From: Chloroflexota bacterium
GTDB lineage: Bacteria; Chloroflexota; Ktedonobacteria; Ktedonobacterales; Ktedonobacteraceae
Assembly (NCBI GenBank): GCA_902810755.1
Contig: CADDYT010000057.1
Location: 1-37,707 of the forward strand
Direction of reading: 5' to 3'
DNA length: 37,707 bases
Under the pieces are notes generated by a model that was not told where the DNA came from, ran no database searches, and worked only from the letters and a program-made list of their open reading frames with translations. The position numbers and the translations under genes are program-made. Shown here in pieces: positions 8,502 through 37,324 of this stretch. Position 1 is the first letter of the stretch. Every line of letters starts with the position of its first letter.

Positions 8502-8513
8502 TCCTGTATACAG

Positions 8514-8570
8514 GCGAGGGCAAGCAAACGACGAGCAGCTACGATCTGCTCGTCGTTTGCTTGCCCTCGC
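8514..8570. terminator. Bidirectional hairpin terminator
   Basis: A perfect 25-bp inverted repeat (8514-8538 with 8546-8570) with a 7-nt loop CTACGAT, exactly between the convergent R3H ATPase gene (stop 8501) and the MFS gene (stop 8576). Arms begin GCGAGGGCAAGCAAACG. The exact symmetry and position fit a shared terminator, although T-runs are short. Confidence 0.75.
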
Positions 8571-8575
8571 CTTCC

Positions 8576-17536: not shown

Positions 17537-17621
17537 GGGGACGGAAGACACCCGCAAGGGGATGTCTCTACAGGCCAAACGACGGTGTAGAGACATCCCC
17601 TTGCGGGTGTCTTCCGTCCCC
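17537..17621. repeat. Perfect 36-bp inverted repeat between convergent GT genes
   Basis: Arms 17537-17572 and 17586-17621 are exactly complementary over 36 bp (starting GGGGACGGAAGACACCCG) with a 13-nt loop. It lies between the ends of two convergent glycosyltransferase genes. No T-run follows on either side. Length and exactness exceed a normal terminator and fit a recently inserted palindromic element that may still end transcription from both sides. Confidence 0.85.
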
Positions 17622-23479: not shown

Positions 23480-26080
23480 TTACTGTTTGGCCTCCTGGCA
23501 GAGAGAATGCTGGTCAATCAGTTCGTGCAGCCCCGCCCAGCCGGTTGTGCGTTCTAGCGTTCGGCGAAACATCTCAGGGCTATGATGCGTGGCGATGTAT
23601 TGGCGGGCAAGCTGTCCCATGCGCTGGCAAAGCTGCTCATCGCTCAGCAATTGCGCAAGGGCGGCGCTGGTCTCCGTGACATTTCCCGCAGGAACCGCGA
23701 AGCCGCGCCCCTCAGAAAGCAGTAGAGCATTCGACAACGGCTCGGTCGAGGCAACGACCGCGCAGGCTGAGGCCATCGCTTCCAGAACTGCCATCGCGTA
23801 ACAAGCTCCTCGTGTGCTGGTATAAAGAAAAATGTCGCTTATGCTCAGCAGCGTGATTACCTCTGCTGACGAAAGCGTTCCCCATAGCTGGCAATATTGT
23901 CCAAGATTATGGCGGATGATATCCTGCTCCACCTGCTGGCGCAGCGGCCCATCTCCCGCGATGACCACACGCACGCGCTCGCGCTGTCCCTCTGTTAAGG
24001 TTGAAAGCGCCTGGCTAATGCTTTCGAGGGCGTTATCCAACCCTTTTTCAGGCGCGAGCCGACAGGCAATAGCAATAATAAGCGCATTAGCAGGCAATCC
24101 TTTTTCTCGACGTTGCGCGACTCTCATCTCCTCGTCTGGCAATGGGTGGCGACGTATATCAATCATGCTGCCGTAGCGCGTCACGCGATGAGGGGAAATG
24201 CCAGCCAAGCGGCAGCCCTCATCCACGCTATCGCCTGGAACGCCAGGAATGAGGTAGGCATCGATGTAACGCGAGGCGATACGCGCCAGGAGATAGCGCG
24301 AGGGCCAGTAGAAAGTCAGCAAGCGCCGGGCGGCGAAACGTACTGGCCAGGGCCAGGGTTTTCCGGCAATCGCTCTCATGCGCTCCTGCTGGAGAATGCG
24401 TTTATTGCGCGGCGTGAACAGGCTGAGGTCTCCATGATCGATACAGACGACGCGCACACCGGTCAATTTGCCCGCAATACCCACCAGCGCGCCCGAAAAG
24501 ACGGCATCCTGCGGCAGCACAACGCGGAAGTCCGCGTGATGGCGCATCAGCAAAACGAACTTGCGAATACCGAACAGCACATAGAGCCAGACAAAGGGAA
24601 AATACCAGGGCGTCATGCGGCGCGTGCCGAACTTGTGAATAATGTAGCGTTCCGCGCCCGTCCCCAGGTATTGCGTAAGATATTCCACCTGCCAGCGATC
24701 TCGCATGACCTCAACCATACCCTCGAGAACGGTGCCAACCCCGCCAAAGGTGGGAAAATCCTGGATGGAGACGCAGACGCGCTTGCGGTTCCCTTTCTCC
24801 ATCAGAGTTTTTGCAGCACCATTACCCGGTGGATTGATGTAGCCAGTTGCCATGAAACGCAAGGCCATATGTAAGGAATGTTTGCATGCAGCAAAGCTGC
24901 GCATAAGCGCATAACGCAAACGCGCAGTCCGTTTGTTGAGTAATTGTTGCCAGCGCCGGGCATAGCGCCTGCAACACTCATCTGGAAGCCCATCCAGTAA
25001 GGATATCATGAGTGCCAGTTCAGCAGGTGCGACAAGGCGACGCGAGGCAAGATCAGCATAAACCCAGGTGGGATGAGCTTTGCCGCGACCAATTTCAAAT
25101 TGTTCAAGTAAGCTATGCAATGTCTTTACAACATGTTGGGCTAATTGCTGATACCGCATCCCTTCCGTAGGGACAGGGGGATGTGGGACGGCGATGTGGG
25201 GGCCTGGTGCCTGTCCCTGAAGCGGGGTGGGGCAAATGGGCTTCCCCTCGTCCGCGCCTGTTTCCCCACCCCACCCCGGGACAGGCACCAGGCCCCCACT
25301 CCACTCCTCACATCTCCCCGTCCCTACGCTCCCGAAAAGGGTTGGAGAGAGACAAACAACATCGAACAGCCCATGCAGCGCAAAAAGACAACCAACCAGC
25401 GCGTGGGATGCCGGATAAACGCCAAATTCCTCGAAAAAAATACCATCATTGCCGATAGGGGCCAAAATGCCACCATCTAAAATATCGCGTTCAAATGTTA
25501 GCAAGACACGTTCGATGGACGCGATGATTGCGCCGTCCCGGTTGTAGGGACGCGCTTCAGCGCATCCACCCGGGACGAAGGACGCGCTGAAGCGCGTCCC
25601 TACAGCATCCTGTTGCGACATAATTTGATAGACGCGCAACAACACGGAAAGGCCGCAACTCTGGGCAATCGCTGAAAGATAGAGCCGGGCGTCTTCTTGT
25701 ACGGGCCAGCCGCCTGCATCGCCCGTGATACGCTGTTCGTTTTTCACCAGCCAGTCGGCCTGAGCGAGAAAGCTCGCCAGGCAACCTTCATCGCCCGTCT
25801 GGCAATAGCGATTCCATTGGGCAAGGGCATAACGAGCAATATCAACCGGGGAATAACAGTGCATGTCCAGGCGATAGGGTATTCCATTAGCATCAAACGC
25901 GCTATTATCCGGTTGTAGAAACGATGACATATCAATGGGATAAGGCAAAAGCGCCTGCCGTTCTGTGGTAGGGGCGAACCTTGTGGTCGCCCTGGAACAA
26001 GTCGCCGGAGAATTGCCAGAGGTGGACGCGCTGAAGCGCGTCCCTACATGTTTGGCTACCCCTTTGGGAAGATTTGTCAT
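23480..26080 (-). CDS. Glucuronyl C5-epimerase-like domain joined to a GT4 glycosyltransferase, with three repeat insertions
   Basis: An 866-residue protein from ATG 26080 (GGAGGG upstream; 3 bp after the wzy stop). Residues about 40-350 resemble the C5-epim_C alpha/alpha-toroid: LPYPIDM, YSPVDIARYALAQWNRY, ADWLVKN, LYLSAIAQSCGLSVLLRVYQI and the key FFEEFGVYPASHALVGCLFALHGLFDV. Such enzymes invert C5 of glucuronate in polymers. Residues about 427-866 are a GT4 enzyme (VSIQDFPTFGGVGTVLEGM, ACRLAPEKGLDNALESI, STRGACYAMAVLEAMASACAVVAS). Three palindromic repeats are inserted in frame: residues 12-38, 160-179 and 252-305, each beginning Val-Gly-Thr and lying in loops of the toroid or at the N terminus. 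No ribosome-binding site precedes Met427, so fusion is more likely than two genes. Whether the epimerase domain is active is unknown. Confidence 0.82.
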   Translation of the reverse strand: MTNLPKGVAKHVGTRFSASTSGNSPATCSRATTRFAPTTERQALLPYPIDMSSFLQPDNSAFDANGIPYRLDMHCYSPVDIARYALAQWNRYCQTGDEGCLASFLAQADWLVKNEQRITGDAGGWPVQEDARLYLSAIAQSCGLSVLLRVYQIMSQQDAVGTRFSASFVPGGCAEARPYNRDGAIIASIERVLLTFERDILDGGILAPIGNDGIFFEEFGVYPASHALVGCLFALHGLFDVVCLSPTLFGSVGTGRCEEWSGGLVPVPGWGGETGADEGKPICPTPLQGQAPGPHIAVPHPPVPTEGMRYQQLAQHVVKTLHSLLEQFEIGRGKAHPTWVYADLASRRLVAPAELALMISLLDGLPDECCRRYARRWQQLLNKRTARLRYALMRSFAACKHSLHMALRFMATGYINPPGNGAAKTLMEKGNRKRVCVSIQDFPTFGGVGTVLEGMVEVMRDRWQVEYLTQYLGTGAERYIIHKFGTRRMTPWYFPFVWLYVLFGIRKFVLLMRHHADFRVVLPQDAVFSGALVGIAGKLTGVRVVCIDHGDLSLFTPRNKRILQQERMRAIAGKPWPWPVRFAARRLLTFYWPSRYLLARIASRYIDAYLIPGVPGDSVDEGCRLAGISPHRVTRYGSMIDIRRHPLPDEEMRVAQRREKGLPANALIIAIACRLAPEKGLDNALESISQALSTLTEGQRERVRVVIAGDGPLRQQVEQDIIRHNLGQYCQLWGTLSSAEVITLLSISDIFLYTSTRGACYAMAVLEAMASACAVVASTEPLSNALLLSEGRGFAVPAGNVTETSAALAQLLSDEQLCQRMGQLARQYIATHHSPEMFRRTLERTTGWAGLHELIDQHSLCQEAKQ
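25167..25327. repeat. 161-bp palindromic element inside the epimerase/GT4 gene
   Basis: Long imperfect palindrome. The left arm starts GTAGGGACAGGGGGATGTG at 25167; the right arm ends CATCTCCCCGTCCCTAC at 25327. A 23-bp core containing GGGGGCCTGGTGCCTGTCCC is perfectly repeated in both arms. It is translated in frame on the minus strand as an insert of about 54 residues rich in Gly and Pro (starting VGTGRCEEWSG). It shares GTAGGGAC ends with the smaller elements but has a different interior. Confidence 0.85.
25544..25603. repeat. 60-bp palindromic element, exactly 20 codons, inside the epimerase/GT4 gene
   Basis: Two 24-bp arms (25544-25567 and 25580-25603, one mismatch) around a 12-nt loop. 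The arms begin GTAGGGACGCGCTTCAG. On the minus strand the element reads as whole codons from GTA to TAC: VGTRFSASFVPGGCAEARPY. It sits between YQIMSQQDA and NRDGAII, a loop between two helices of the epimerase-like toroid. Confidence 0.9.
25968..26047. repeat. 80-bp composite palindromic element at the 5' end of the epimerase/GT4 gene
   Basis: The right part (26024-26047) is one 24-bp unit of the GTAGGGACGCG family. The left part begins GTAGGGGCGAACC (25968) with a small stem GGGCGA..TCGCCC, resembling the sequence at 37562-37586. On the minus strand it begins at codon 12 with GTA and adds VGTRFSAST and following residues. Confidence 0.75.
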
Positions 26081-26083
26081 CGC

Positions 26084-27547
26084 TTAGCCCTCCTTCCCTA
26101 CGCGATTCGCGTTTGCTTTGCCAACCTGCCTTTGGGCAAACCATTTGGTGAGCAGTGGAGAAGCGAGCGCGCCGAGAACGAGCCAGCCGAGCATGGCCAG
26201 GACGGGATTTGTCCAGGCGTTAATCGTCCAGCTATTGACGCTGAGCGTAATGATAGCTGCGATGCCAGCGCCGATTACGGGCCGGTGTTCATAATCGCTG
26301 CGCAGCCAGTTGCGAATGGAAAGCCAGAGGAAATAAACCAGCAGGGCCATAAAAATAGCCAGAACGGGCAGACCGGCCATTGCGCCCCATTCAAGATACG
26401 AATTGTGGGGATGCGCTAAGGGAGCATATTCTTGTGGCACGCGAAACGGGTTAGACAGCACCAGATAGCTTTGATAGCCCAGACCAATACCTGTCCAGGG
26501 ATAGACAGAGATGATACGTAAAGCGGTCAGCCAGGCTCCAACGCGCAGGGGGACTTCGTCCGGCTCCTGGGTGTGAACAAGCAGGCTAGCAATTTGTGCG
26601 GGGAAGAAGAGAATCAGCAGGCCAACGGCGATAACACACAGGATAGGCAGCAGCACACGATAGTGCATTCGTCCAACAAAGACCAGCAGAGTTGCCACGC
26701 CGATGCTCAGGCTGACCCATGCCCCGATGCTATAGGTAAACATAATGGCAAGCACGATCAGGCACATCCCACAGAGATAGACAGCTTTTCCCAGCAGCGA
26801 CCGGCTGCTGACCAGAAGGCCAAAGGGCAGAAAGAACAGCATGCCCAGAAAGGTGCCATTCCAGTTGGGGTCGATAAAAAAGGAACCATAGCGATGCGCG
26901 TTGGTATTCCATATCTGGAAATTGGCGGTCTGCAACAACACCGTATCATAGTGCGAGGTTCCCAAAATGGTGATGCCCAGGGTGGCTTGAATGATGGTAT
27001 GAAGGGCAAACAACGCTCCCATAGCCGCGAGCCACTGGAACAAACGACGCAAACTGCCGCCATTTCGCGCAAGAAGTATGCCAATCCAGATCATCAGCAA
27101 CGCTCCCAGAATGTCGCTGGGATAATAGGTTGCAGCATCATACAGCACCCATGCTCCTTTGATGGACGGGCTGATGGTCAGCAGGAGAAACAAAGCCCAG
27201 AGCCAGGGAGCTTTTGGGCCAATCCAGGGATGCTCTGGCGAACGCGAGATATAGTAAAAGAGCAGCAAGATGATCGCCATAAGCGGCGCAACAATATGCA
27301 GCCCGATATAGAGATCAATATACAGGTGAACGGAGATAAGTATCGCCATCGCCAGCTCATCCTGTCGCAGCAGGCAGACAATTACCATAAACAGGCCGCC
27401 CACGAAGGCCGCGCCATAGACCGGATTGATATAACCAAGCACACCGCCAACCAGCAGCGCGCCGATGATAACAATGAACTGAAATAGATAGGGACGTGCT
27501 GCATGGTCTCCGCCCCACATGAATAGAGATTTGTTATTATTCCACAT
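26084..27547 (-). CDS. wzy: Wzy/O-antigen ligase-like polymerase
   Basis: A 487-residue multi-pass protein (about 12 hydrophobic helices) of the Wzy_C/O-antigen ligase group. The signature periplasmic loop is present: RVGAWLTALRIISVYPWTGIGLGYQSYL, then PLAHPHNSYLEWGAMAGLPVLAIF, where the His-Pro-His-Asn-Ser-Tyr motif is conserved. It would join repeat units on the outer face of the membrane, after flipping. Start at ATG 27547 with GGAAGGG 5-11 nt upstream; 29 bp after cpsB and 3 bp before the epimerase/GT4 gene. In this locus polymerase is more likely than ligase because flippase, co-polymerase and priming enzyme are all present. Confidence 0.85.
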   Translation of the reverse strand: MWNNNKSLFMWGGDHAARPYLFQFIVIIGALLVGGVLGYINPVYGAAFVGGLFMVIVCLLRQDELAMAILISVHLYIDLYIGLHIVAPLMAIILLLFYYISRSPEHPWIGPKAPWLWALFLLLTISPSIKGAWVLYDAATYYPSDILGALLMIWIGILLARNGGSLRRLFQWLAAMGALFALHTIIQATLGITILGTSHYDTVLLQTANFQIWNTNAHRYGSFFIDPNWNGTFLGMLFFLPFGLLVSSRSLLGKAVYLCGMCLIVLAIMFTYSIGAWVSLSIGVATLLVFVGRMHYRVLLPILCVIAVGLLILFFPAQIASLLVHTQEPDEVPLRVGAWLTALRIISVYPWTGIGLGYQSYLVLSNPFRVPQEYAPLAHPHNSYLEWGAMAGLPVLAIFMALLVYFLWLSIRNWLRSDYEHRPVIGAGIAAIITLSVNSWTINAWTNPVLAMLGWLVLGALASPLLTKWFAQRQVGKANANRVGKEG

Positions 27548-27576
27548 ATCGCCCTTCCACCATACCGTTCCATAAT

Positions 27577-28322
27577 TTACGCAAAGACGCCATGAAGCGA
27601 GCCGCTGCCTGAAACTGCGTTCTGTAAAATAGCAGCTGGGCGAGTCTCGACCATCGCGAAAGCGGCCTCGCGCCCAACCAGTTTGCAGGCCCGTTCCATG
27701 CCCTTCGCGACGCCAGGCGGGTGTTTATGCATGCCATGCGCGTCCGAGGCCAGGCAGGAAACAAGCCCCTTCTTGAGCAGAGCTTCGGCGGCGCGTCGAA
27801 TGGTGTTACCCTGCATACCACGAGCGCGCCCAGCGTCACCTGCGGCAGCACGCCCTGGCGCACTAGCGAGGCGAGTAGCGGCGAGTCTTTCTGGAAAACA
27901 GTGTAGCGCTCTGGATGGGCGATCAAAGGAATAACCCCGAACGCCTGCAACTCGAAGATCACCTGCTCGGTGGCGGGAACCCAACCCGTATTCCAGAGTT
28001 CCAGCAGCAGATAGCGACTGCTTGCGAGCGTGCAAACCCGCCCCATTTGAATATCCTCTACCAATCCTGGCTTAATAAGCACTTCGTGACTGGCAAAGGC
28101 GCGCAAAGGGATGCCGGAACGATAGAGCGCCTGTTGCAGTTCGTAGACTCGGGCGACAATCTCCACCGCGCCATGTCGCGGATACTGGTCGTTATAGTGC
28201 GGTGTCGCAATCACGGTATGAACGCTCTCTTGCACCAGCGAGCGAGCCAGATCAAGCGATTCGTTTAGCGTGGCCGGACCATCGTCCACTCCTGGTAAAA
28301 TATGTAGATGCGTATCAATCAT
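27577..28322 (-). pseudogene. CpsB/YwqE-type PHP tyrosine phosphatase, frameshifted
   Basis: A metal-dependent PHP phosphatase that removes phosphate from the BY-kinase partner in capsule loci. Start Met (28322) with GGGGGAG 6 nt upstream. Motifs: MIDTHLHILPGVDDGP (metal His residues), VIATPHYNDQYPRHG, IPLIAHPERYTVF, and in the second frame CLASDAHGMHKHPP. The frame breaks at about 27818-27820: VTLGALV in one frame must continue as GMQGNTIRRAAEALLKKGLV in the other, which needs one extra G in a GG run. The restored protein would be about 248 residues, normal for the family. The break may be a sequencing error. It is in frame with the preceding DUF4012 gene without a stop, probably through another G-run error. 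Confidence 0.85.
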
Positions 28323-30368
28323 CTCGTTCTCCCCCTTATCCCCCAGAGTAATGGTGACATCTGAATCAATCGTGTCCAACACAAGCTGCCGGGCAGGCGC
28401 AGTACCCGTCATGCCAGATGCGCCGCTCGTTTTGCCGGTGCAAGCTACCTGCGCATGTATGTGCCAGCTTGTTCTAGCCTGGTGCTGGATAAAATACTGG
28501 TAATGCCTGTCGCCCGAATGAATGACGGTTGGTACCGTCCACGTGAAATGTAGCGTGCGAGTCTGACCGTAGACCAGCGTGAAAAAACCTGTCCAGACCT
28601 CACGGCCAAAGGACAGCGACGTGCCATGCGGCTCCCAGCCGCTTTGCGCTTGCAAAATGCTCCTGGGCGGCGCGTAAAGGCGAGCATAGTCTTTATAGAG
28701 CGCGTGCCCGTAGACATTCCCCTGCACTGTCCAGGCATACATAAGCGTCAGGGAGTGGTGAGCGTTTCCACTCGCATCAATTGTCACGCTGTCATGAAGC
28801 GAACTCGTAATAAAGGAATTGGCCTTATCTCCTGCCACATTGGTATCTACGACGAAGAGGCTATCGCCATCTGGAGCCTGAATTGTGCCATCCAGGTGAA
28901 ACGCATGCAAAAGCGATTCGGCGGCCTGTGCGTTGAAATAGACCTGAATATCCCTTGATGTCATCGCCTGAGCGAATAGATGCGCGAACGAAGCAAGAGC
29001 AGAACCGGGAAGCTGGTACTGGCGCGCCATAAAATGTTCCGCCAGCAACTCGGTAAAGCGCTGGCGCAGCGACGAGTGCCCATCTGGCGAGGCGATAAAA
29101 TCATTGCCCTCGATAGCCAGGCCAAGCTGATGATAATGAATGCGATCTATCAGATTCTGTGGTGTCACCGTCTCCCCATATTCGGGCAGATAAATCGGTC
29201 CGGTAATGGTCATAGCCTGCTGGATAAGAGCAGGCGTAATGGCAATCACGCCCTGTACGGCAACCGTGCCGCCTTCGCGATGATAATCCAACTCGGCATA
29301 TTGGGCCGCAGTCGGAAAATCGGCATCCAGGTTGGAGTCGCGCAGGCTCCAGCCATTGGTGGCGAGATAGGTATGGAACCAACGATACTGTGGCGGAAAC
29401 AGGATGCGATGCCCGGAAAAATTAAAAGGCTTATCCAGCAAATCCACGTCGCTGACATGTACGGACTGCACACGGCCATCAGCTAGAGTGAGAAGACCGA
29501 TATTGCCGATAAAGCCGCCCGTCGGTCGAAGTTCGCTCGAGTCTTGCAGTTCAAGTAGATAGCTGGTTGGAGACCGAATGCCGAGCAGCGAAGGCAGCAC
29601 AGGAAAAAGTTGCTCCGCATCCTGCAGCCAGGAACGCACCTGAGGCAATTTTTGCTGAAACGAGGCAAAGAGCGTGCTGAGATGCGGCGAAAAACTGAGA
29701 TCCGAGGGCTGCACCTGGTCTGCATTCGCAATTACGGCACCCAGCGCAGTCTCAAGCCGCTGAAAATCGCGGGTAAGTTGGGCAGATTTCGCGCAGGTAA
29801 GGCCCTGCGAGCCAGAAGAACCTGTGCTGAGCGGCTTGTGATAGGCGGAAATGACGATATCCAGCGCATCACAACCCACTATGCCCGCCTGTGATGCATC
29901 GAGGGCAAGCGAAGACAGGCGCATGGCCGCATTCAGTCGCGCATCATAAACCGGCATATCCTGCGCAATACCGGGAAAGCTACTCAGTCCGCTGTTCAAC
30001 TGTTCAAAGAGCGAAAGAGATCGCGTAAACTCCTGTTTCGCGTGGTTCACGATGGCAGAATCGAACGGATTGTGCGGCAGGCTCTCTATAAGAAGAGCAG
30101 CCTGCCACAAATGATCCACGCCGGACTGCGCAAGTAATATGTAGGAGCGATAGCACGCGCTCAGTTGCTGGTAGGCAAACAGCGATACTACCGAACTGGC
30201 AACGGTGATGAACAGCGCGAGCGATAGCCAGAAGCGGAGTTGATGGCTCTTTCCGCGAGTCTTGCGCCGGATATGCATACCAGGGCCGTCCTCCCCTGGG
30301 ATACTCTGCCATAACGATGTTGCCTGTCCCAGAAGCGGGAACAGCTTCCACCTGTCTGTTGGCATCAT
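28323..30368 (-). CDS. DUF4012 protein, membrane-anchored, of the polysaccharide locus
   Basis: About 680 residues. A positively charged N terminus, one TM segment (FWLSLALFITVASSVVSLFAY, about 46-66), a helical extracellular region (about 70-260) and the DUF4012 core with YLLELQDSSELRPTGGFIGNIG, NLDADFPTAAQYAELDY and a TPALIQQAMTITGPIYLPEYG stretch. Function is unknown; DUF4012 proteins are often found near polysaccharide genes in Gram-positive and Chloroflexota genomes, and a role in wall attachment or export of polymer is speculative. Its ATG overlaps the BY-kinase stop (ATGA). The reading frame runs into the CpsB start without a stop; one more G at 28340-28344 would create GGA-TAA just before the cpsB ribosome-binding site. 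Confidence 0.8.
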
Positions 30369-32009
30369 GGCTGTCCTCGTGGCGATAGTAGTAAGTAGGA
30401 GTAGGCTGAATCGCTACGGCTGCGACGCTGCTTGTTGACAATACAACCCAGGATGTTCGCGCCGACCTGGGCCAGCTGGGTTTTTACCTGCGCCAGCGCT
30501 TTCCTGTTGGCGCAGCTGATATCGATCACTACCAGCGTGCCATCGACCTTCGAGGCCAGGATATTGGCGTCAGAGATACCGCGAATCGGCGGCGCGTCAA
30601 AGATCACCATTTCAATGCCGCACCCCTTCCAGAATACTGAAAAAGCGTTTCATAGCCTTGGAGTCGAGCAGTTCGGATGGGTTAGGCGGCAGCGGATCTG
30701 ATGGCATAACCCAGAGGTTCGGAATACCAACATTGTGAACATAGGGTTCGAGCGAAAACTGCTGATGCGTGCCGGAGAGCAGCCCAGGCGTGCCCAGAGA
30801 TAGGAACTGCGCGCCTACCTGGCTCGTCGCGCCCGGCATACTGAGAGCGAGAACAGCATTGCTCAGCCCTTTTCTATCGGCAGGTAGATTGAAAATCTGG
30901 TGCTGCGTCGGCCGACGCAGGTCGGCATCGATGAGCAGCGTGCTTTTACCAGCCTTTGCCAGGAAAATCGCCAGATTGGCAGCGATGGTACTCTTGCCAT
31001 CACCAGGCATGGCGCTGGTCAGCATTATCGTGTGTAGCGGCTTGTCAAGACTGGAGAAGCCAACGTTGGTGCGCAAGATGCGATAGGCTTCGACATTGGC
31101 ATCGCGTTCGTGCGGGTTGATGAGCGCTTTACGCTCCTTTTCGGCCTGCCGGGAACGCCAGACGGTGCCAAGCACCGACCAGCCAAAGAGGCGCGTCACA
31201 TCCTCGGCGGTGCGAACACGAGTGTCCAATTGCTCAAAGAGCAAAGCAAGCAACAGGCTAAAAAAGAGGCCAGCAGCCAGTCCCGCGCCGGTATTCAACA
31301 GCACCACCGGGCGCACCGGGTGCGATTGCGGCTGGGCCATCTGGGCCAGCCGCAGGAAGTCGCCGCTTTGCGCCTGCGATAGCTCAAGCTGCGCCAATAA
31401 CATCTCCCACTGATTGTAGTGCTGCTGCAAGGCATTCAGTTTGGCCTGCAGGACGCTGATCTGCGATTGGCTTGCACCGTTGGCCTGCAAGGCAGCAATG
31501 TGATTCGCGATGGAATTCATCTGCTGCCGGGTTGAATCAAGGTCCTGCTGAATCTGCTGCAAAGCGTGCTGGTTATCGGTCTGCACAACCTGCGCCTGCT
31601 GCTTAATCAGGGTCGTCGCGATATCATTGGCGAGGGCCGCCGTGCGTGTGGGACTCGGATCAAGCACCGTGATGGTAAACAACTGCGTGTTGAGCGTGGG
31701 CGTGGATGTCACCTCTTTAGAAAGCGTATCCACCGTCAGCCCGGGATAATGCGAGGCCACTTCCCGCAAAACGGACGCACCCGTTGCTAGCTGCGACTCG
31801 GTCTGTACCAGTTGATCGCTCGCCAGCAGGTTATTGTAATCGGCCTGGCTGCTGCTCGAACGAACCGAAATCTGCACCACTGCATCGGCCTGATACAGCG
31901 ACGTCATCAGTTTGCTGACAATAAAAGCTTCCAGGCCAGCAATCAGAAAACAACTCCCAATAAGCTTCCAATGCTTCAAAATGGTTGACCAGTAGTTTTC
32001 AAAGGTCAT
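30365..32009 (-). pseudogene. Wzz/BY-kinase (chain-length regulator and tyrosine autokinase), frameshifted
   Basis: Start MTFENYWSTILKHWK at 32009. A Wzz domain with two TM helices (GSCFLIAGLEAFIVSKLM; LLNTGAGLAAGLFFSLLLAL), a coiled coil between them (about 160-230), then a BY-kinase domain: Walker A SAMPGDGKSTIAANLA, A' TLLIDADLRRPTQH and, in the shifted frame, Walker B MVIFDAPPIRGISDANIL. The C-terminal tail is short with two tyrosines (SAYSYLL), where BY-kinases have their phosphorylated cluster. The frame break at 30623-30626 is one G too many in GGGG after FFSILEG; removing it gives FFSILEGCGIEMVIFD. The kinase would regulate Wzy polymerisation and be reset by the CpsB phosphatase encoded two genes on. 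The full product would be about 548 residues. Confidence 0.88.
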
Positions 32010-32051
32010 ACCTACACTATCCCCCCACTTTCTACCTGATTCCCTTGAAAA

Positions 32052-32194
32052 AGGCGGCCTTATGAACATTGATAAGACTGTAGGGACGCGATTCATCGCG
32101 TCCACCTGGCCTAAACGCATATGATGGGCCGGACGCGATGAATCGCGTCCCTACAGAAACGCCTGTTATTTCATAGACCTTCATAAGGTCGCCT
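32052..32194. repeat. Older hairpin split by a palindromic element
   Basis: AGGCGGCCTTATGAA (32052-32066) and TTCATAAGGTCGCCT (32180-32194) are complementary over 15 bp with one mismatch. The 75-bp element at 32080-32154 lies between them, so it looks inserted in the loop of a pre-existing hairpin, perhaps the terminator or processing hairpin between the sugar transferase and BY-kinase genes. Confidence 0.6.
32080..32154. repeat. 75-bp palindromic element (intergenic copy)
   Basis: Two perfectly complementary 24-bp arms (32080-32103 and 32131-32154), beginning GTAGGGACGCGATTCATCG, with a 27-nt loop. Same family as 25544-25603 and the units in the aminotransferase gene. Its length, 75 bp, is also a multiple of three. 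Confidence 0.9.
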
Positions 32195-32198
32195 CAAA

Positions 32199-33758
32199 TT
32201 ACCTTCCACGACAGAATAAGACCTCGATAACGGTCTTGAGTATGATAAAGATGTCGAGCATCATAGACTGGTGCTTGATATAGTAGAGATCGTATTGCAA
32301 CTTGATGAAGGCGTCGTAGTCCGAACTGGCATACGGGTACTTCACCTGCGCCCAGCCCGTAAGGCCGGGTCGAACACTTAAACGACAATGATAAAAAGGA
32401 ATGCTGCGCGACAGATGCTCTACGAAGACCTGGCGCTCTGGCCGAGGTCCAACCAGCGTCATTTCGCCGCGCAGGATGTTGATGACCTGCGGCAGTTCGT
32501 CAAAGTGTGTGGCGCGCATCAGACGACCAACGCGGGTGACACGCCTATCTCCCTGCACAGCCCAGATGGCGTTGCCAACTTTTTCGGCGTCGGTACGCAT
32601 GGAGCGGAACTTGAGAATATTGAACGGCTTGCCGCGATAGCCGATACGCTGCTGCTTATAAAAGATGGGGCCGGGCGAGTCCAGATAAATGCATAAGGCG
32701 ATAAGCGGCAACAACAGGAGCATGATAGTTGTGCCAACGAGGCCAAACGTGAGATCGAGCAGTTTGCGCCAGCAGAGATAAAATGGCGATACCAGCACTT
32801 CCGAGGGAAGCGAACCATACCATTGATCGCCAATATGCTCCACAGCGATTTTTCCGCTCATCTGTTCGTAAACAAGTGACATCGGCACGACTGAAATGCC
32901 GCGCTGTGCCGCCTCGATGGTTTCCTGAAAGAGCGACGGATTGACTTTATAATCCAGAGTCATGATGATGGTATCAATCAAGCCCCGCTCAATCAGATTG
33001 CGCAGGGCAATGCGGCTGCCGAGTACGGGCAGCCCATCGACCTGCGCGGCGATTTCAGGCTTTTCGCTGATGTAACCCAATACGCTAATATTGGGGCGTT
33101 TCGTCTCCTTCAATTCCTTGACCAGCGTGCTACCGGCAGCATTGACACCGACAATAACCGCGCGGGGGGCAAATTGGGGCAGGCTCATACAAAAAGCAAG
33201 AGCCACCCGCCATACAACGAATAGCGGAAGCGCCCAGACCAGGAAAACACATTCCGCCTTGATCGCTGGAGCCAGTACTTTGTTCAGGCCAAGCCAGGTC
33301 AGCGCCGTCCAGGTAGTCACAGTCAAAAGCAGCGCGAGTGTAATGGCAAGCGCGCTCTTAAAGCGATTGGTGACAAAAATAAAGTCCTGCGCCTGGGTGA
33401 TAGATAGCGCCATACACCACGAAGCCAGGCCAAGACAACCCCAGATCAGTTCCAGATTGCCAAACTTCCTCGATATCCAGCTTTCTACCAGAGCAGGCTG
33501 GGCCGGAATGATAAAAAACAGCGCGAAGGTAAGCGCCATCACAATGACAAAAGCATCACCAACCAGCAAGGTAAGCCGCCATAATGCCTGTGACGGCCTG
33601 CGACGATAGGCCTTTTGCAATTCTGGCAGTTCAGATGGCACGTCCTCTACCAGTAGAGTAGTATTACGCAAGAACGAACTGTCTCCCTGGATTCCTTCTT
33701 GCTTGCGCGAATTTGATAGAGATATCCTGGGCAAACTGGCAGTATTCTGGAATTCCAT
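32199..33758 (-). CDS. Polyprenyl-phosphate sugar-1-phosphate transferase (priming enzyme)
   Basis: A 519-residue member of the WbaP/WcaJ/PglC-type family that starts each repeat unit by moving a sugar-1-phosphate from a nucleotide sugar to undecaprenyl phosphate. Four or five N-terminal TM helices (about 60-200), a cytoplasmic Rossmann-like region (VIVGVNAAGSTLVKELKE onward), a TM hairpin (about 335-365) and the catalytic C-terminal domain: SPGPIFYKQQRIGYRGKPF, KFRSMRTDAEK, ATHFDELPQVINILRGEMTL, VGPRPERQVF and RPGLTGWAQVKYPY. The DE pair of HFDELPQ is the expected catalytic site. The sugar cannot be assigned. It lies 69 bp after wecB, in the cluster's direction. Confidence 0.92.
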   Translation of the reverse strand: MEFQNTASLPRISLSNSRKQEGIQGDSSFLRNTTLLVEDVPSELPELQKAYRRRPSQALWRLTLLVGDAFVIVMALTFALFFIIPAQPALVESWISRKFGNLELIWGCLGLASWCMALSITQAQDFIFVTNRFKSALAITLALLLTVTTWTALTWLGLNKVLAPAIKAECVFLVWALPLFVVWRVALAFCMSLPQFAPRAVIVGVNAAGSTLVKELKETKRPNISVLGYISEKPEIAAQVDGLPVLGSRIALRNLIERGLIDTIIMTLDYKVNPSLFQETIEAAQRGISVVPMSLVYEQMSGKIAVEHIGDQWYGSLPSEVLVSPFYLCWRKLLDLTFGLVGTTIMLLLLPLIALCIYLDSPGPIFYKQQRIGYRGKPFNILKFRSMRTDAEKVGNAIWAVQGDRRVTRVGRLMRATHFDELPQVINILRGEMTLVGPRPERQVFVEHLSRSIPFYHCRLSVRPGLTGWAQVKYPYASSDYDAFIKLQYDLYYIKHQSMMLDIFIILKTVIEVLFCRGR

Positions 33759-33827
33759 GCAGTCTCTCCTCTACAACATACCGGGAACTTTTTTTTCAGT
33801 ATACATAGGCATAAGAATGGTCTTTTT

Positions 33828-34877
33828 TTATAGGGCCTGTACAATGCGTTCCGCCGCGTCTCCTCTACCAAAGGGATTATCGCGAACCGAATCCGGCAAA
33901 GGCAAATGTATCGCTTCGAGAATAGCTTCCGGCTGGCTGCCAACCAGCGTATTCCAACTCGTTTCTACCGTTTCAACCCACTCGGTTTCCTCGCGCAAGG
34001 TGATGCAGGGAACCTGAAAGAAAAACGCCTGCTTCTGCACTCCGCCCGAGTCGGTGAGAATGCGCAGGGCCGAGCGTTCCAGTGTCAGCATATCCAGGTA
34101 GCCGACCGGTTCAATCAGCCGAATATGACTTGCACAGGAGATGTCATAATCGCGCAGGCGTTTGCGAGTGCGCGGGTGAATCGGGAAGAGAACAGGAAAC
34201 GGCAGCCGGTTGAGCGCGGAGACAATGTTTTGCATGGTCTCGGGGTCATCCGTATTGCCTGAGCGATGCACAGTAACGAGAAAGTAACGTCCCGGTTCCA
34301 CACGCAGCGAGGAAAGCAGGCGCTCCGTCCGCTCTTCTAGCAAAGGCATCACCTGGAGTTGAATATCATACATCACATCGCCGACGACCTCTACGCCGCA
34401 TGTGATCCCCTCGTTCGCAGCATTTTTACGCGCCGTTTCGGTAGGACAGAAGAGACGGTCTGAGATATGATCGGTGACAATGCGATTGATCTCCTCGGGC
34501 ATCTCGCGATTGAAACTGCGCAGGCCCGCCTCGACGTGAGCGAGAGGGATATGCAGTTTTGCCGCCGCCAGGGCAGCCGCGAGCGTGGAATTGGTATCGC
34601 CAAAAACAACCACCCAATCAGGACGTTCCCCAAGCAGCACCTGCTCGATAGCTTCGAGCATGCGCCCGGTCTGCGCACCATGCGATCCGGAACCGCAGCC
34701 AAGATGATAGTCCGGCTCCGGCAGAGCTAACTCCTGGAAGAACTGTTCGGACATGGCGAAATCGTAGTGCTGGCCCGTATGAATCAGGCATTCATGATGC
34801 CGTTTGCGAAGCGCTCTACTGACAGGCGCAAGCTGCACAAATTCGGGTCGCGCCCCCACCACCGTTGCTACATGCAT
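33828..34877 (-). CDS. wecB: UDP-GlcNAc 2-epimerase family protein (WecB/WbpI-like)
   Basis: A 349-residue GT-B-fold epimerase. MHVATVVGARPEFVQLAPVS opens the N-terminal domain, LIHTGQHYDFAMS and VVVFGDTNSTLAAALAA follow, HVEAGLRSFNREMPEEINR holds the catalytic acids, and FLVTVHRSGNTDDP, FPIHPRTRKRL and LRILTDSGGVQKQAFFFQVPCITLREETEW complete the active site. Start at 34877 (GGAAGG upstream); the longer frame through the upstream palindromic repeat is not believed. Next to a Gfo/Idh dehydrogenase and DegT aminotransferase, it may act on a UDP-2,3-diacetamido sugar as WbpI does rather than on UDP-GlcNAc, so the symbol is tentative. Confidence 0.88.
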   Translation of the reverse strand: MHVATVVGARPEFVQLAPVSRALRKRHHECLIHTGQHYDFAMSEQFFQELALPEPDYHLGCGSGSHGAQTGRMLEAIEQVLLGERPDWVVVFGDTNSTLAAALAAAKLHIPLAHVEAGLRSFNREMPEEINRIVTDHISDRLFCPTETARKNAANEGITCGVEVVGDVMYDIQLQVMPLLEERTERLLSSLRVEPGRYFLVTVHRSGNTDDPETMQNIVSALNRLPFPVLFPIHPRTRKRLRDYDISCASHIRLIEPVGYLDMLTLERSALRILTDSGGVQKQAFFFQVPCITLREETEWVETVETSWNTLVGSQPEAILEAIHLPLPDSVRDNPFGRGDAAERIVQAL

Positions 34878-34897
34878 AGTTTTTCCTTCCCCCTCCA

Positions 34898-34989
34898 CCC
34901 TGTCATGCTGAACACAGCGAAAGATCTGCGGTCTCGACACGCGAATCGTCCGGCACACGAGAGCCTTCGCTGCGCTCAGCATGACAGGG
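34898..34989. repeat. Palindromic repeat, TGTCATGCTGAGCG family
   Basis: Arms CCCTGTCATGCTGA..GCGAAAG (34898-34923) and CCTTCGCTGCGCTCAGCATGACAGGG by parts (34964-34989) pair with about four mismatches over 26 bp. It lies between the dehydrogenase stop and the wecB start. Partial copies are at 17654-17669 and 10258-10287. Confidence 0.75.
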
Positions 34990-35018
34990 GCGAGATGACC
35001 TAAAATGGTTGTTAAAAA

Positions 35019-36050
35019 TCATGATTGCACCTTAGATAACACAGTTGAGCCTCTATCGACAAAATTGCGCTGTCGTGTCGTTTCGACCAGTTTACTGACA
35101 ACGCGCAGCACTGCAAGACCATCCTCACCGGAAACGGTAGGGGCGCGGTCTTCTCGAATGGCGGCGATCACATCCTCGTATTCAAGGCGCAGCGGCTCAG
35201 CTTTCTGCACCTTGAGACGGGTCATCGTGCCCTCGCTGACGCCTGTAAGCGAGCGCAGGGCATCCCAGGTCGTGCCCGTATAATCGTTTTCGTAGAAGTA
35301 GACATCCTGGGTCAGATAGTTCACCACGTACATGCCCTTTTCGCCGGTAATACTGATCTCTCGCACCTTTGTGGGCGTCAGCCAGTTGACGTCGAGGACG
35401 CCGGTTGCCTCGTTTGAGAAGCGCAGCAGGCCGAGCAGCAGATCCTCACAGGTGGCGTGCAGGATGCGCTGCGTCTCGGCGTAAACATGCTCAATCTCGG
35501 CATCGGCAAGATAGCGCATCACATCGATATCGTGCGGAGCGAGATCGAGCGTGACGCCGACATCCGCAATGCGCGCGGGGAACGGGCCGAGCCGCCGGGC
35601 ATGCAGGTGAAAAACTTTGCCGAGTTTACCCGCGACCAGACCGCGCTTCACCTCGATAATGGCAGGATTAAACCGCTCGATATGCCCTACCGCGATCTTG
35701 ACGCCGCGCCGCTCAGCGAGTTCGAGCAGCGAGATAGCCTCTTCCGGCGTGCTGGTAATTGGCTTTTCGATCAGCACGTGCATGCCCCTCTCAAGCACGT
35801 AGGCCGCGATTTCGTAATGAATACAGGTTGGAACAACGATAGATACCAGGTCCGGGCGAGCGATATCGAGCATGTGCCTGTAATCACGAAAGCCCGGCAC
35901 GTGAAAGCGGCTCATGGCCCGTTTCAAAGCGGCTTCGTGCGTTTCTGCCACGCCTACCAGCTGCGCCTGCTCCTCCGGCAATTCTCGCAATACGCGCAGG
36001 TGGTTCATGCCCATCGAACCCGCGCCGATGACGGCAATCCTTATCGACAT
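35019..36050 (-). CDS. Gfo/Idh/MocA-family sugar dehydrogenase (WlbA/WbpB-like)
   Basis: A 343-residue NAD-dependent oxidoreductase. The Rossmann motif is IRIAVIGAGSMGMNHLRVL at the N terminus, the conserved EKP triad is in MHVLIEKPITSTPEEA, and VGHIERFNPAI is the segment often seen in UDP-N-acetyl-sugar 3-dehydrogenases. DVGVTLDLAPHDIDVMRYL holds the conserved active-site Asp/His. It would oxidise the C3 hydroxyl of a UDP-N-acetyl hexose or hexuronate for the following transamination. Its start overlaps the aminotransferase gene end by 10 bp, a tight coupling that supports the shared pathway. Confidence 0.88.
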   Translation of the reverse strand: MSIRIAVIGAGSMGMNHLRVLRELPEEQAQLVGVAETHEAALKRAMSRFHVPGFRDYRHMLDIARPDLVSIVVPTCIHYEIAAYVLERGMHVLIEKPITSTPEEAISLLELAERRGVKIAVGHIERFNPAIIEVKRGLVAGKLGKVFHLHARRLGPFPARIADVGVTLDLAPHDIDVMRYLADAEIEHVYAETQRILHATCEDLLLGLLRFSNEATGVLDVNWLTPTKVREISITGEKGMYVVNYLTQDVYFYENDYTGTTWDALRSLTGVSEGTMTRLKVQKAEPLRLEYEDVIAAIREDRAPTVSGEDGLAVLRVVSKLVETTRQRNFVDRGSTVLSKVQS

Positions 36051-37324
36051 AGGGCAAGCACCTCCTCGACAATCGTATCCAGGTCTTCTTGGCTCAAGGC
36101 AGGATGGACGGGCAGCGATAGCACCTCGCGCGCGGCCTTTTCAGCCTCCAGGAGAATAGAAGCCGCATTTGCGGACGCGATGAAGCGCGTCCCTACAGGT
36201 AGATTGGTGGGCGCGTTTTCGGACGCGATGAAGCGCGTTCCTACAGACCGTTGTAACCCATCCTGTTCCGTCATGCGCATCCCAACCGCAACATCTGTAG
36301 GAACGCGCTTCATCGCGTTCTCTTCCGTCATTGATTGCGTTCGCCCAGAAAGACGATATAATTCAGGCGAGGCTTGATAATACGGCTGCGAATAAATCGT
36401 TTGTGGATAGTGAATACCAATTCCGATGCCGCGCTCCTGCAACTGGCTCGCCCAGGCATCGCGGTCGCAACCTGCAGGAACGCGGATGGTGTACTGGTGA
36501 AAGACGTGGCGATACCCAGGCTTCACCATTGGAGTACGCACCACGCCTGCCAATTTTTCGCTTAGATAGGCGGCGTTAGAGATGCGGTCTGCGGTAAACT
36601 TCTCCAGCCTTTCGAGCTGTGCCAGCCCTATAGCCGCCTGTAAATCGGTCATCCGCAGGTTGAAGCCCAGGGCGGTATGATGATAGCGGGACTGCTGGCC
36701 GTGATTGCGTAACAGGCGTACACGCTCGGCGATGTGAGTGTCGTTGGTTGTCACCATTCCGCCCTCGCCGGTAGTCATGTTCTTGGTAGGATAAAATGAG
36801 AAGCAGCCAGTGCCGAAACCGCCAACCGGTTTGCCCTCAATGCTGGCCGCGTGAGCCTGGCAGGCGTCTTCAATCAGGACGAGAGAATAGCACTCCGCGA
36901 TTGCGGTCAGGCGCGCCATATCGCAGGGATTGCCATAGAGATGAACCGGTAGAATGGCTCGTGTGCGGGGTGTGATGGCGGCTTCAACCTGTTCGGGATC
37001 AAGATTGAAGGTCTCGGGGTCGATGTCCACAAACACAGGCGTCGCGCCGACCAGCAGAATCACATTGGCGGTCGCGGCAAAGCTGAACGGCGTGGTAATA
37101 ACCTCGTCGCCATAGCCGATATCATACGCAATCAAGGATAGGTGCAGGGCAGCCGTTCCTGATGAAACGGCTATGGCCTCCTTCACCTGGCAAAGTTCCG
37201 CGAAACGACGCTCAAAGGCAGCTACGCGCTCCCCCTGGACAAGTTGCCCCGAGCGCAGCACATCTAGAAGGGCAGCCTCTTCCTCCGGGCCAAAAAGAGG
37301 GCGCGCAATTGGAATCACCGGCAT
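36041..37324 (-). CDS. DegT/DnrJ/EryC1 PLP-dependent sugar aminotransferase with repeat insertion
   Basis: About 427 residues from ATG 37324, chosen because AGGAGG lies 7 nt upstream. It aminates a keto-sugar nucleotide. IPIARPLFGPEEEAALLDVL opens the protein; AVSSGTAALHLSL, VHLYGNPCDM, IEDACQAHAAS, TGCFSFYPTKNMTTGEGGMV (PLP lysine in the PTKN segment) and NLRMTDLQAAIGLAQL are the family landmarks. Between GRTQSMTEE (about residue 330) and AASILLEAEKAAREVLSLPVHPALS there is an insert of about 54 residues made by three 24-bp repeat units (VGTRFIAS twice, and the inverted reading NAMKRVPT). The insert sits in a loop just before the conserved C-terminal strand. Family length is normally 370-380. 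Confidence 0.9.
   Translation of the reverse strand: MPVIPIARPLFGPEEEAALLDVLRSGQLVQGERVAAFERRFAELCQVKEAIAVSSGTAALHLSLIAYDIGYGDEVITTPFSFAATANVILLVGATPVFVDIDPETFNLDPEQVEAAITPRTRAILPVHLYGNPCDMARLTAIAECYSLVLIEDACQAHAASIEGKPVGGFGTGCFSFYPTKNMTTGEGGMVTTNDTHIAERVRLLRNHGQQSRYHHTALGFNLRMTDLQAAIGLAQLERLEKFTADRISNAAYLSEKLAGVVRTPMVKPGYRHVFHQYTIRVPAGCDRDAWASQLQERGIGIGIHYPQTIYSQPYYQASPELYRLSGRTQSMTEENAMKRVPTDVAVGMRMTEQDGLQRSVGTRFIASENAPTNLPVGTRFIASANAASILLEAEKAAREVLSLPVHPALSQEDLDTIVEEVLALCR
36173..36320. repeat. Three 24-bp repeat units inside the aminotransferase gene
   Basis: Units at 36173-36196 and 36221-36244 (direct) and 36297-36320 (inverted) belong to the GTAGGGACGCG family (minus-strand start GTAGG[G/A]ACGCGCTTCATC), differing by one or two bases. 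Units 1 and 2 begin exactly on codons 377 and 361. Together with their spacers they keep the reading frame open through the gene. Confidence 0.88.

Follow-up and report, generated by a model that had tools for sequence, protein, structure and literature searches.

The window, the whole 37.7 kb stretch of DNA analysed here, is a polysaccharide-synthesis locus in which short palindromes lie inside enzyme genes, and it raises the question of what decides the reading phase in which such elements are found. The initial annotation described a palindrome family that prefers one phase when it enters genes, and left open whether selection or the insertion mechanism keeps that phase translatable. We consider it probable that the family consists of GTAG-tagged REPs and REPINs of a Ktedonobacteraceae type, mobilised by a RAYT/TnpA-REP enzyme, and that the copies seen in genes are the survivors that were in frame, free of stops and placed in a tolerated loop. 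The two host genes and the eight copies of the 24-bp unit are as follows.

23480..26080, minus strand: host gene 1, a fusion of a C5-epimerase-like part and a GT4 glycosyltransferase (epimerase/GT4), 866 aa, with three insertion sites
36041..37324, minus strand: host gene 2, a DegT/DnrJ/EryC1 aminotransferase of 427 aa as called in the database (P0003), with a REP-filled linker
25544..25567, plus strand: REP copy 1, inverse to the epimerase/GT4 gene, one stem mismatch
25580..25603, minus strand: REP copy 2, upright in the epimerase/GT4 gene, its GTA being codon 160
26024..26047, minus strand: REP copy 3, upright in the epimerase/GT4 gene, its GTA being codon 12
32080..32103, plus strand: REP copy 4, intergenic
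32131..32154, minus strand: REP copy 5, intergenic
36173..36196, minus strand: REP copy 6, upright in the aminotransferase gene
36221..36244, minus strand: REP copy 7, upright in the aminotransferase gene, in tandem with copy 6 at a distance of 48 bp, one stem mismatch
36297..36320, plus strand: REP copy 8, inverse to the aminotransferase gene, tail-to-tail with copy 7, encoding NAMKRVPT

All eight lie exactly where the initial annotation had placed them, and a consensus scan of the window with up to three mismatches returns no others, nor any copy in 100 shuffles. Each copy consists of a GTAG tag and a hairpin, with the tag abutting the palindrome in 8/8; the published tag rule places GTAG (or GTGG) 0–2 nt 5′ of the hairpin (PMC6006769), as is the case throughout. 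A perfect stem of 7–9 bp follows GTAG directly in six copies; simulated windows (first-order Markov, n = 40) contain on average 0.1 sites of this kind with a stem of at least 7. By complementarity, four copies have a stem of 9 and a loop of 2, two have a stem of 7 and a loop of 6, and the copies at 25544 and 36221 carry one stem mismatch each. The two loops of 6 exceed the rule for short REP hairpins, a basal stem of 7–20 fully paired nucleotides and a loop of 2–5 nt (PMC6006769), and count against the REP explanation. Copy 2 shows GTAG with a 9-bp stem and a 2-nt loop by complementarity, an 8-bp stem and a 4-nt loop in the folded model, and a DNA fold of −10.7 kcal/mol (z −5.5) when taken alone.

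Six of the eight copies are intragenic, all of them in one of these two genes, and two lie between genes. GTAG-tagged REPs are mostly extragenic, which is a family tendency and not a strict rule; the intragenic share found here is unusual for a REP family and likewise counts against this explanation. Because the window is approximately 95% coding (gene list compiled in this analysis), genes nevertheless carry fewer copies than their coding share.

The unit had originally been given as GTAGG...CCTAC over 24 bp. Searched with two mismatches, that pattern yields 11 hits, eight of which are the copies, against 8.8 expected; it conflates the unit with the outermost ends of the pairs, and searching with it therefore does no better than chance. 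The GTAGG...CCTAC outer palindromes are head-to-head REP pairs, or REPINs, and the paired and related elements are the following.

25544..25603: head-to-head REP pair (REPIN) of 60 bp in the epimerase/GT4 gene, encoding VGTRFSASFVPGGCAEARPY (20 residues)
32080..32154: intergenic REPIN of 75 bp, between a Wzz-like gene and a sugar-transferase gene
25167..25327: imperfect pair GTAGGGAC...GTCCCTAC of 161 bp in the epimerase/GT4 gene, its GTA being codon 252; the sister protein P0123 has the pair too
25968..25992, plus strand: second REP-like subtype (GTAGGGGCGA...TCGCCC), read by eye

GTAG-tagged REPs form head-to-head, tail-to-tail and head-to-tail dimers (PMC3733652), and the positions and strands of the copies give all three: head-to-head at 25544/25580 and 32080/32131, head-to-tail at 36173/36221 and tail-to-tail at 36221/36297. 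The DNA fold of the 60-bp REPIN is −31.5 kcal/mol (z −11.9). The 75-bp REPIN is flanked by the start of the Wzz-like gene near 32009 (a chosen start) and the stop of the sugar-transferase gene at 32199. The second subtype at 25968 forms with copy 3 a mixed head-to-head pair of 80 bp (25968–26047), and the arms of the 161-bp pair are unlike the 24-mer. Inverted ends, which together with a target-site duplication are the mark of MITEs, are present in the pairs.

Other palindromes also occur in the window. At 34893–34994, upstream of a UDP-GlcNAc 2-epimerase gene, lies a palindromic pair (TGTCATGCTGA...) with arms 83% complementary, which we take to resemble CGTC/TGTC-type REPs. A tail-to-tail pair of another GTAG unit (GTAGAGACATCCCC...), with perfectly complementary 36-nt arms, is found at 17537–17621 between convergent ORFs, and a terminator-like perfect 27-bp inverted repeat with a 7-nt loop stands at 8512–8572, also between convergent ORFs. 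Scans of the window for tRNAs and Rfam families gave no matches.

The presence and absence among relatives that the initial annotation had expected of mobile elements appears at the protein level, in the epimerase/GT4 family and in the aminotransferase relatives P0004 and P0005. The 866-aa protein, used as query, gave 97 hits (itself included; 7989 candidates scored), all of which we aligned, so that the comparison covers one sister and some 90 other homologs; where organisms are named, homologs of both host proteins come from Ktedonobacteraceae, Ktedonosporobacter or Chloroflexota. Around residue 160 the window has 45 residues and the sister P0123 has 51, compared with exactly 19 in 90/97 sequences, 23 in one, and four that are truncated or unaligned. 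Around residue 252 the corresponding values are 79, 87 and exactly 19 in 87/97, with three sequences of 18, 20 or 22 residues and five truncated or unaligned. Among the 97 sequences, the insertions at 160 and 252 are thus common to the window and P0123 only, and this sister (892 aa, 81% identity) carries both in frame. Its REPIN at site 160 encodes 26 residues instead of the 20 in the window, with similar arms and a different spacer. At site 12, the N terminus of the window protein has KGVAKHVGTRFSASTS, a 16-residue segment containing copy 3, and the sister has none. The net gains at sites 160 and 252 are 78 and 180 nt, or 18 and 19 nt more than the elements themselves (60 and 161 bp), which indicates that these insertions were not clean element-length events or were edited later.

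Two further features of this family were observed in passing. Beside the site of the second REP subtype, P0123 has a seven-residue unit (RATAEQS-like) repeated approximately four times, an in-frame expansion. P0214, a homolog of 1284 aa, has the epimerase/GT4 protein additionally fused to a Wzy_C domain.

In the aminotransferase, whose search scored 7999 hits, the REPs fill a linker of variable length, spanning 8–107 residues with a median of 26 in the 81 of 121 sequences where it was measurable. 7b0d, the closest relative in sequence with a solved structure, has about 3 residues between the aligned parts that flank it. The window linker holds one inverse REP and two upright REPs 16 residues apart, and that of P0005 holds the inverse REP and a single upright one, that is, one copy fewer, by 16 residues. 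Together with the tandem 48-bp spacing, this leads us to count the two upright copies as one event. P0004 has one intact REP and one seemingly eroded; it also carries, in frame, a member of a second palindrome family (DVILSAAKDL...LRCAQDD), matching translations of the window pair at 34893–34994. The same linker contains VGTRFIAS in P0032. At the protein level, this shows GTAG REPs entering conserved enzyme genes, remaining in frame across two related lineages and varying in copy number by whole codons.

The inserts coincide with low-confidence segments of the AlphaFold models. Segments with pLDDT below 50 that contain them are 1–42, 159–179 and 250–305 in the epimerase/GT4 protein, where residues 161–180 are modelled between two helices, and 338–396 in the aminotransferase. 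As insert-free segments fall below 50 as well (203–223, 331–336, 413–429 and 849–866 in the former; 1–18, 166–179, 187–195 and 219–229 in the latter) and the input alignments are shallow (16 and 23 rows), low pLDDT at the inserts is weak evidence of disorder.

All five gene-oriented starts, those of four 24-mers and of the 161-bp element, fall on a GTA codon. As previously annotated, these are codons 12, 160 and 252 of the 866-aa ORF, and codons 361 and 377 of the aminotransferase in the P0003 call (370 and 386 when counted in the longest ORF); the start at codon 252 shares the GTA phase, and its arms are those of the 161-bp element, not of the 24-mer. The inverse intragenic copies at 25544 and 36297 do not share a phase. 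Among the three paired intragenic elements, two (the REPIN of 60 bp and the 161-bp pair) leave a single readable phase: in three-phase translation the gene strand is open only in the phase observed, the TAG of GTAG closing one alternative and a TGA the other, which in the 60-bp REPIN sits in the mirror arm. The initial annotation had noticed the TAG and missed the TGA. Two phases are open in the site-12 pair, whose translation began at 25969 and so lacked one base, and likewise two in the aminotransferase block. With the block counted as one insertion, the joint chance that four of four independent insertions share one phase is 0.012 with stops ignored and 0.25 given the readable phases (0.125 with P0032 added), so that a preference calling for more than stop codons is not supported. 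A stop-codon filter is enough for the apparent phase rule at these small numbers, and a special mechanism is unneeded. Since tag and arms fix the readable phases, a phase bias has to be judged against those phases and not against one third, which offers a simple rule that can be tested on any genic palindrome.

A precedent for the openness filter proposed here is found in Neisseria, where an open 107-bp form of an element is abundant in ORFs and a closed 155-bp form is absent there, with one exception (PMC2229807). In the literature covered, to which supplementary file 3 of PMC3733652 (REP-encoded residues) does not belong, we found no treatment of the reading phase of intragenic GTAG REPs. 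A search with REP peptides had low sensitivity in a trial with simulated targets (at most 2/30 per class under E 10, four-phase composite); the protein search, conducted with phase-0 REPIN peptides only, gave 23 candidates, none at E ≤ 10, and is uninformative on phase.

Could the insertion mechanism itself pick the codon phase, for example through an enzyme target that usually occupies one? The agreement of all five starts, and of P0032 and the sister proteins with them, is what such an enzyme would produce, and a target context may exist because CT directly precedes GTAG in 6/8 copies, compared with 10/204 other GTAGs in the window. Yet for two of the four independent insertions the observed phase was the only readable one, the remaining agreement is at the chance level given above, and the CT context is found equally in both intergenic copies. 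We therefore consider phase choice by the enzyme very unlikely and reject it, as stops account for most of the pattern. A milder possibility is that peptide content adds to the stop filter, with the bland phase-0 VGTRF[IS]AS retained over the Arg/His-rich RDA[LI][HQ]RV of phase 2. Phase 0 is used at both free-choice sites and in P0032, and with more cases this might become a genuine bias; read in phase 2, the aminotransferase block is rich in Cys, Arg and His. The phase-0 peptide occurs in 4 of the best 120 of 7999 aminotransferase hits (as VGTRF) and in 2/97 epimerase sequences, the window's own included in each case, and the phase-2 peptide in 0/120 and 0/97, few of which carry any REP. On the other hand, the events are very few and here inseparable from chance, and we hold such an added preference to be possible but tentative.

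Two further readings concern the fate of the inserts and not their phase. The repeats might have been co-opted, so that REP-encoded segments serve as adjustable linkers in exopolysaccharide enzymes; the four sites in two enzymes of a single locus, the two palindrome families in the one linker of P0004 and the wide range of linker lengths would suit this idea. However, the inserts are absent from most homologs seen and appear unstructured in the predicted models, and we regard co-option as unlikely. Equally doubtful is the stronger form, in which REPs would supply this lineage's exopolysaccharide locus with changeable linkers whose variation is under selection; were it true, palindromes with few readable phases would have been repeatedly inserted, duplicated and trimmed by codons at loops in a pair of enzymes from one pathway. 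That the host genes are decayed ORFs with an accidentally open phase is suggested by the heavy load of three insertions in one gene. Against this, the 866-aa frame is open and aligns to its end, and the 81%-identical sister still has two insertions in frame; with the sister so conserved, gene decay is rejected as highly improbable.

The account that we favour, REP insertion followed by survival of tolerated copies, would run as follows. The 24-mer would be a GTAG-tagged REP and the head-to-head pairs REPINs, that is, short non-autonomous mobile elements. Their anatomy leads us to infer that a trans-acting RAYT/TnpA-REP enzyme most likely mobilised them in the form of single-stranded hairpins, and a single mobilising enzyme may be shared by the palindrome family. 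Copies would insert at many places, and those surviving in genes would be the ones that lengthen the gene by complete codons, are free of stops in their reading phase and lie at a loop-tolerant site of the protein; selection would act here as a filter. Once inserted, tandem copies may be added or removed through duplication and through whole-codon changes of the spacer. The earlier description of a mobile-looking, REP-type palindrome family inserted in frame accords with this account.

Bertels and Rainey reportedly described REPINs together with RAYT enzymes in 2011. The window elements resemble such systems in having paired inverted REPs as the unit and in the CT adjoining the REP: TnpA-REP enzymes cleave at a CT 5′ or 3′ of the REP (PMC8266576), and the CT directly 5′ of GTAG in six copies is compatible with RAYT mobilisation without being proof of it. 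They differ in that no RAYT gene was found in the window, which is known from sequence alone; a phmmer search of window ORFs of at least 50 aa, in which 12 open reading frames of two Y1_Tnp loci served as queries, gave no hit to a Y1-type transposase, a weak test.

By description rather than by sequence, the elements are like the GTAG-tagged REPs of Di Nocera et al. 2013 (PMC3733652) in tag, short hairpin, head-to-head and tail-to-tail dimers and intragenic copies, and unlike them in that the majority of window copies are intragenic. GTAG repeats have been recorded in Chloroflexi (T. roseum GTAG-23), and more than half of the known intragenic inserts are dimers or groups encoding 20–30 residues (PMC3733652); the main text of that paper does not contain the word 'Ktedonobacter'. 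In-frame REPs are therefore already in print, and what is new here is the homolog-based evidence of insertion, the two-family linker and the explanation offered for the phase rule. Rickettsia palindromic elements (RPEs) are similarly found in frame within genes, shared by orthologs, and encode segments on exposed parts of proteins (PMC3767692, PMC2229807). RPEs are longer than the window unit, at 100–150 bp (PMC3767692), and their hosts are unrelated. In-frame RPEs are also covered in PMC3733652, where the intragenic RPE-4 and RPE-6 are classed as CGTC-type; the GTAG tag of the window unit and the Chloroflexota-type sources of the homologs rule out a Rickettsia palindromic element.

Beyond the window, a scan of genome contigs for sugar-transferase homologs gave 23 loci, none titled Chloroflexota. 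The core pattern was absent from the 15 genomes behind 15 of these 23 loci (0/15), and was present in 2/145 genomes from the class of the Spirulina locus (L019), with a symmetric palindrome in both. Plasmids gave no match at E 0.01 and 16 records at E 10, the best at E 0.7 and with coverage of at most 36% of the query. Among viral contigs, two contain the core pattern and none the longer pattern, and the exact 24-mer of the 32080 copy occurs at L024:5638–5661 and L025:1550–1573, in both cases outside the listed ORFs of at least 100 aa.
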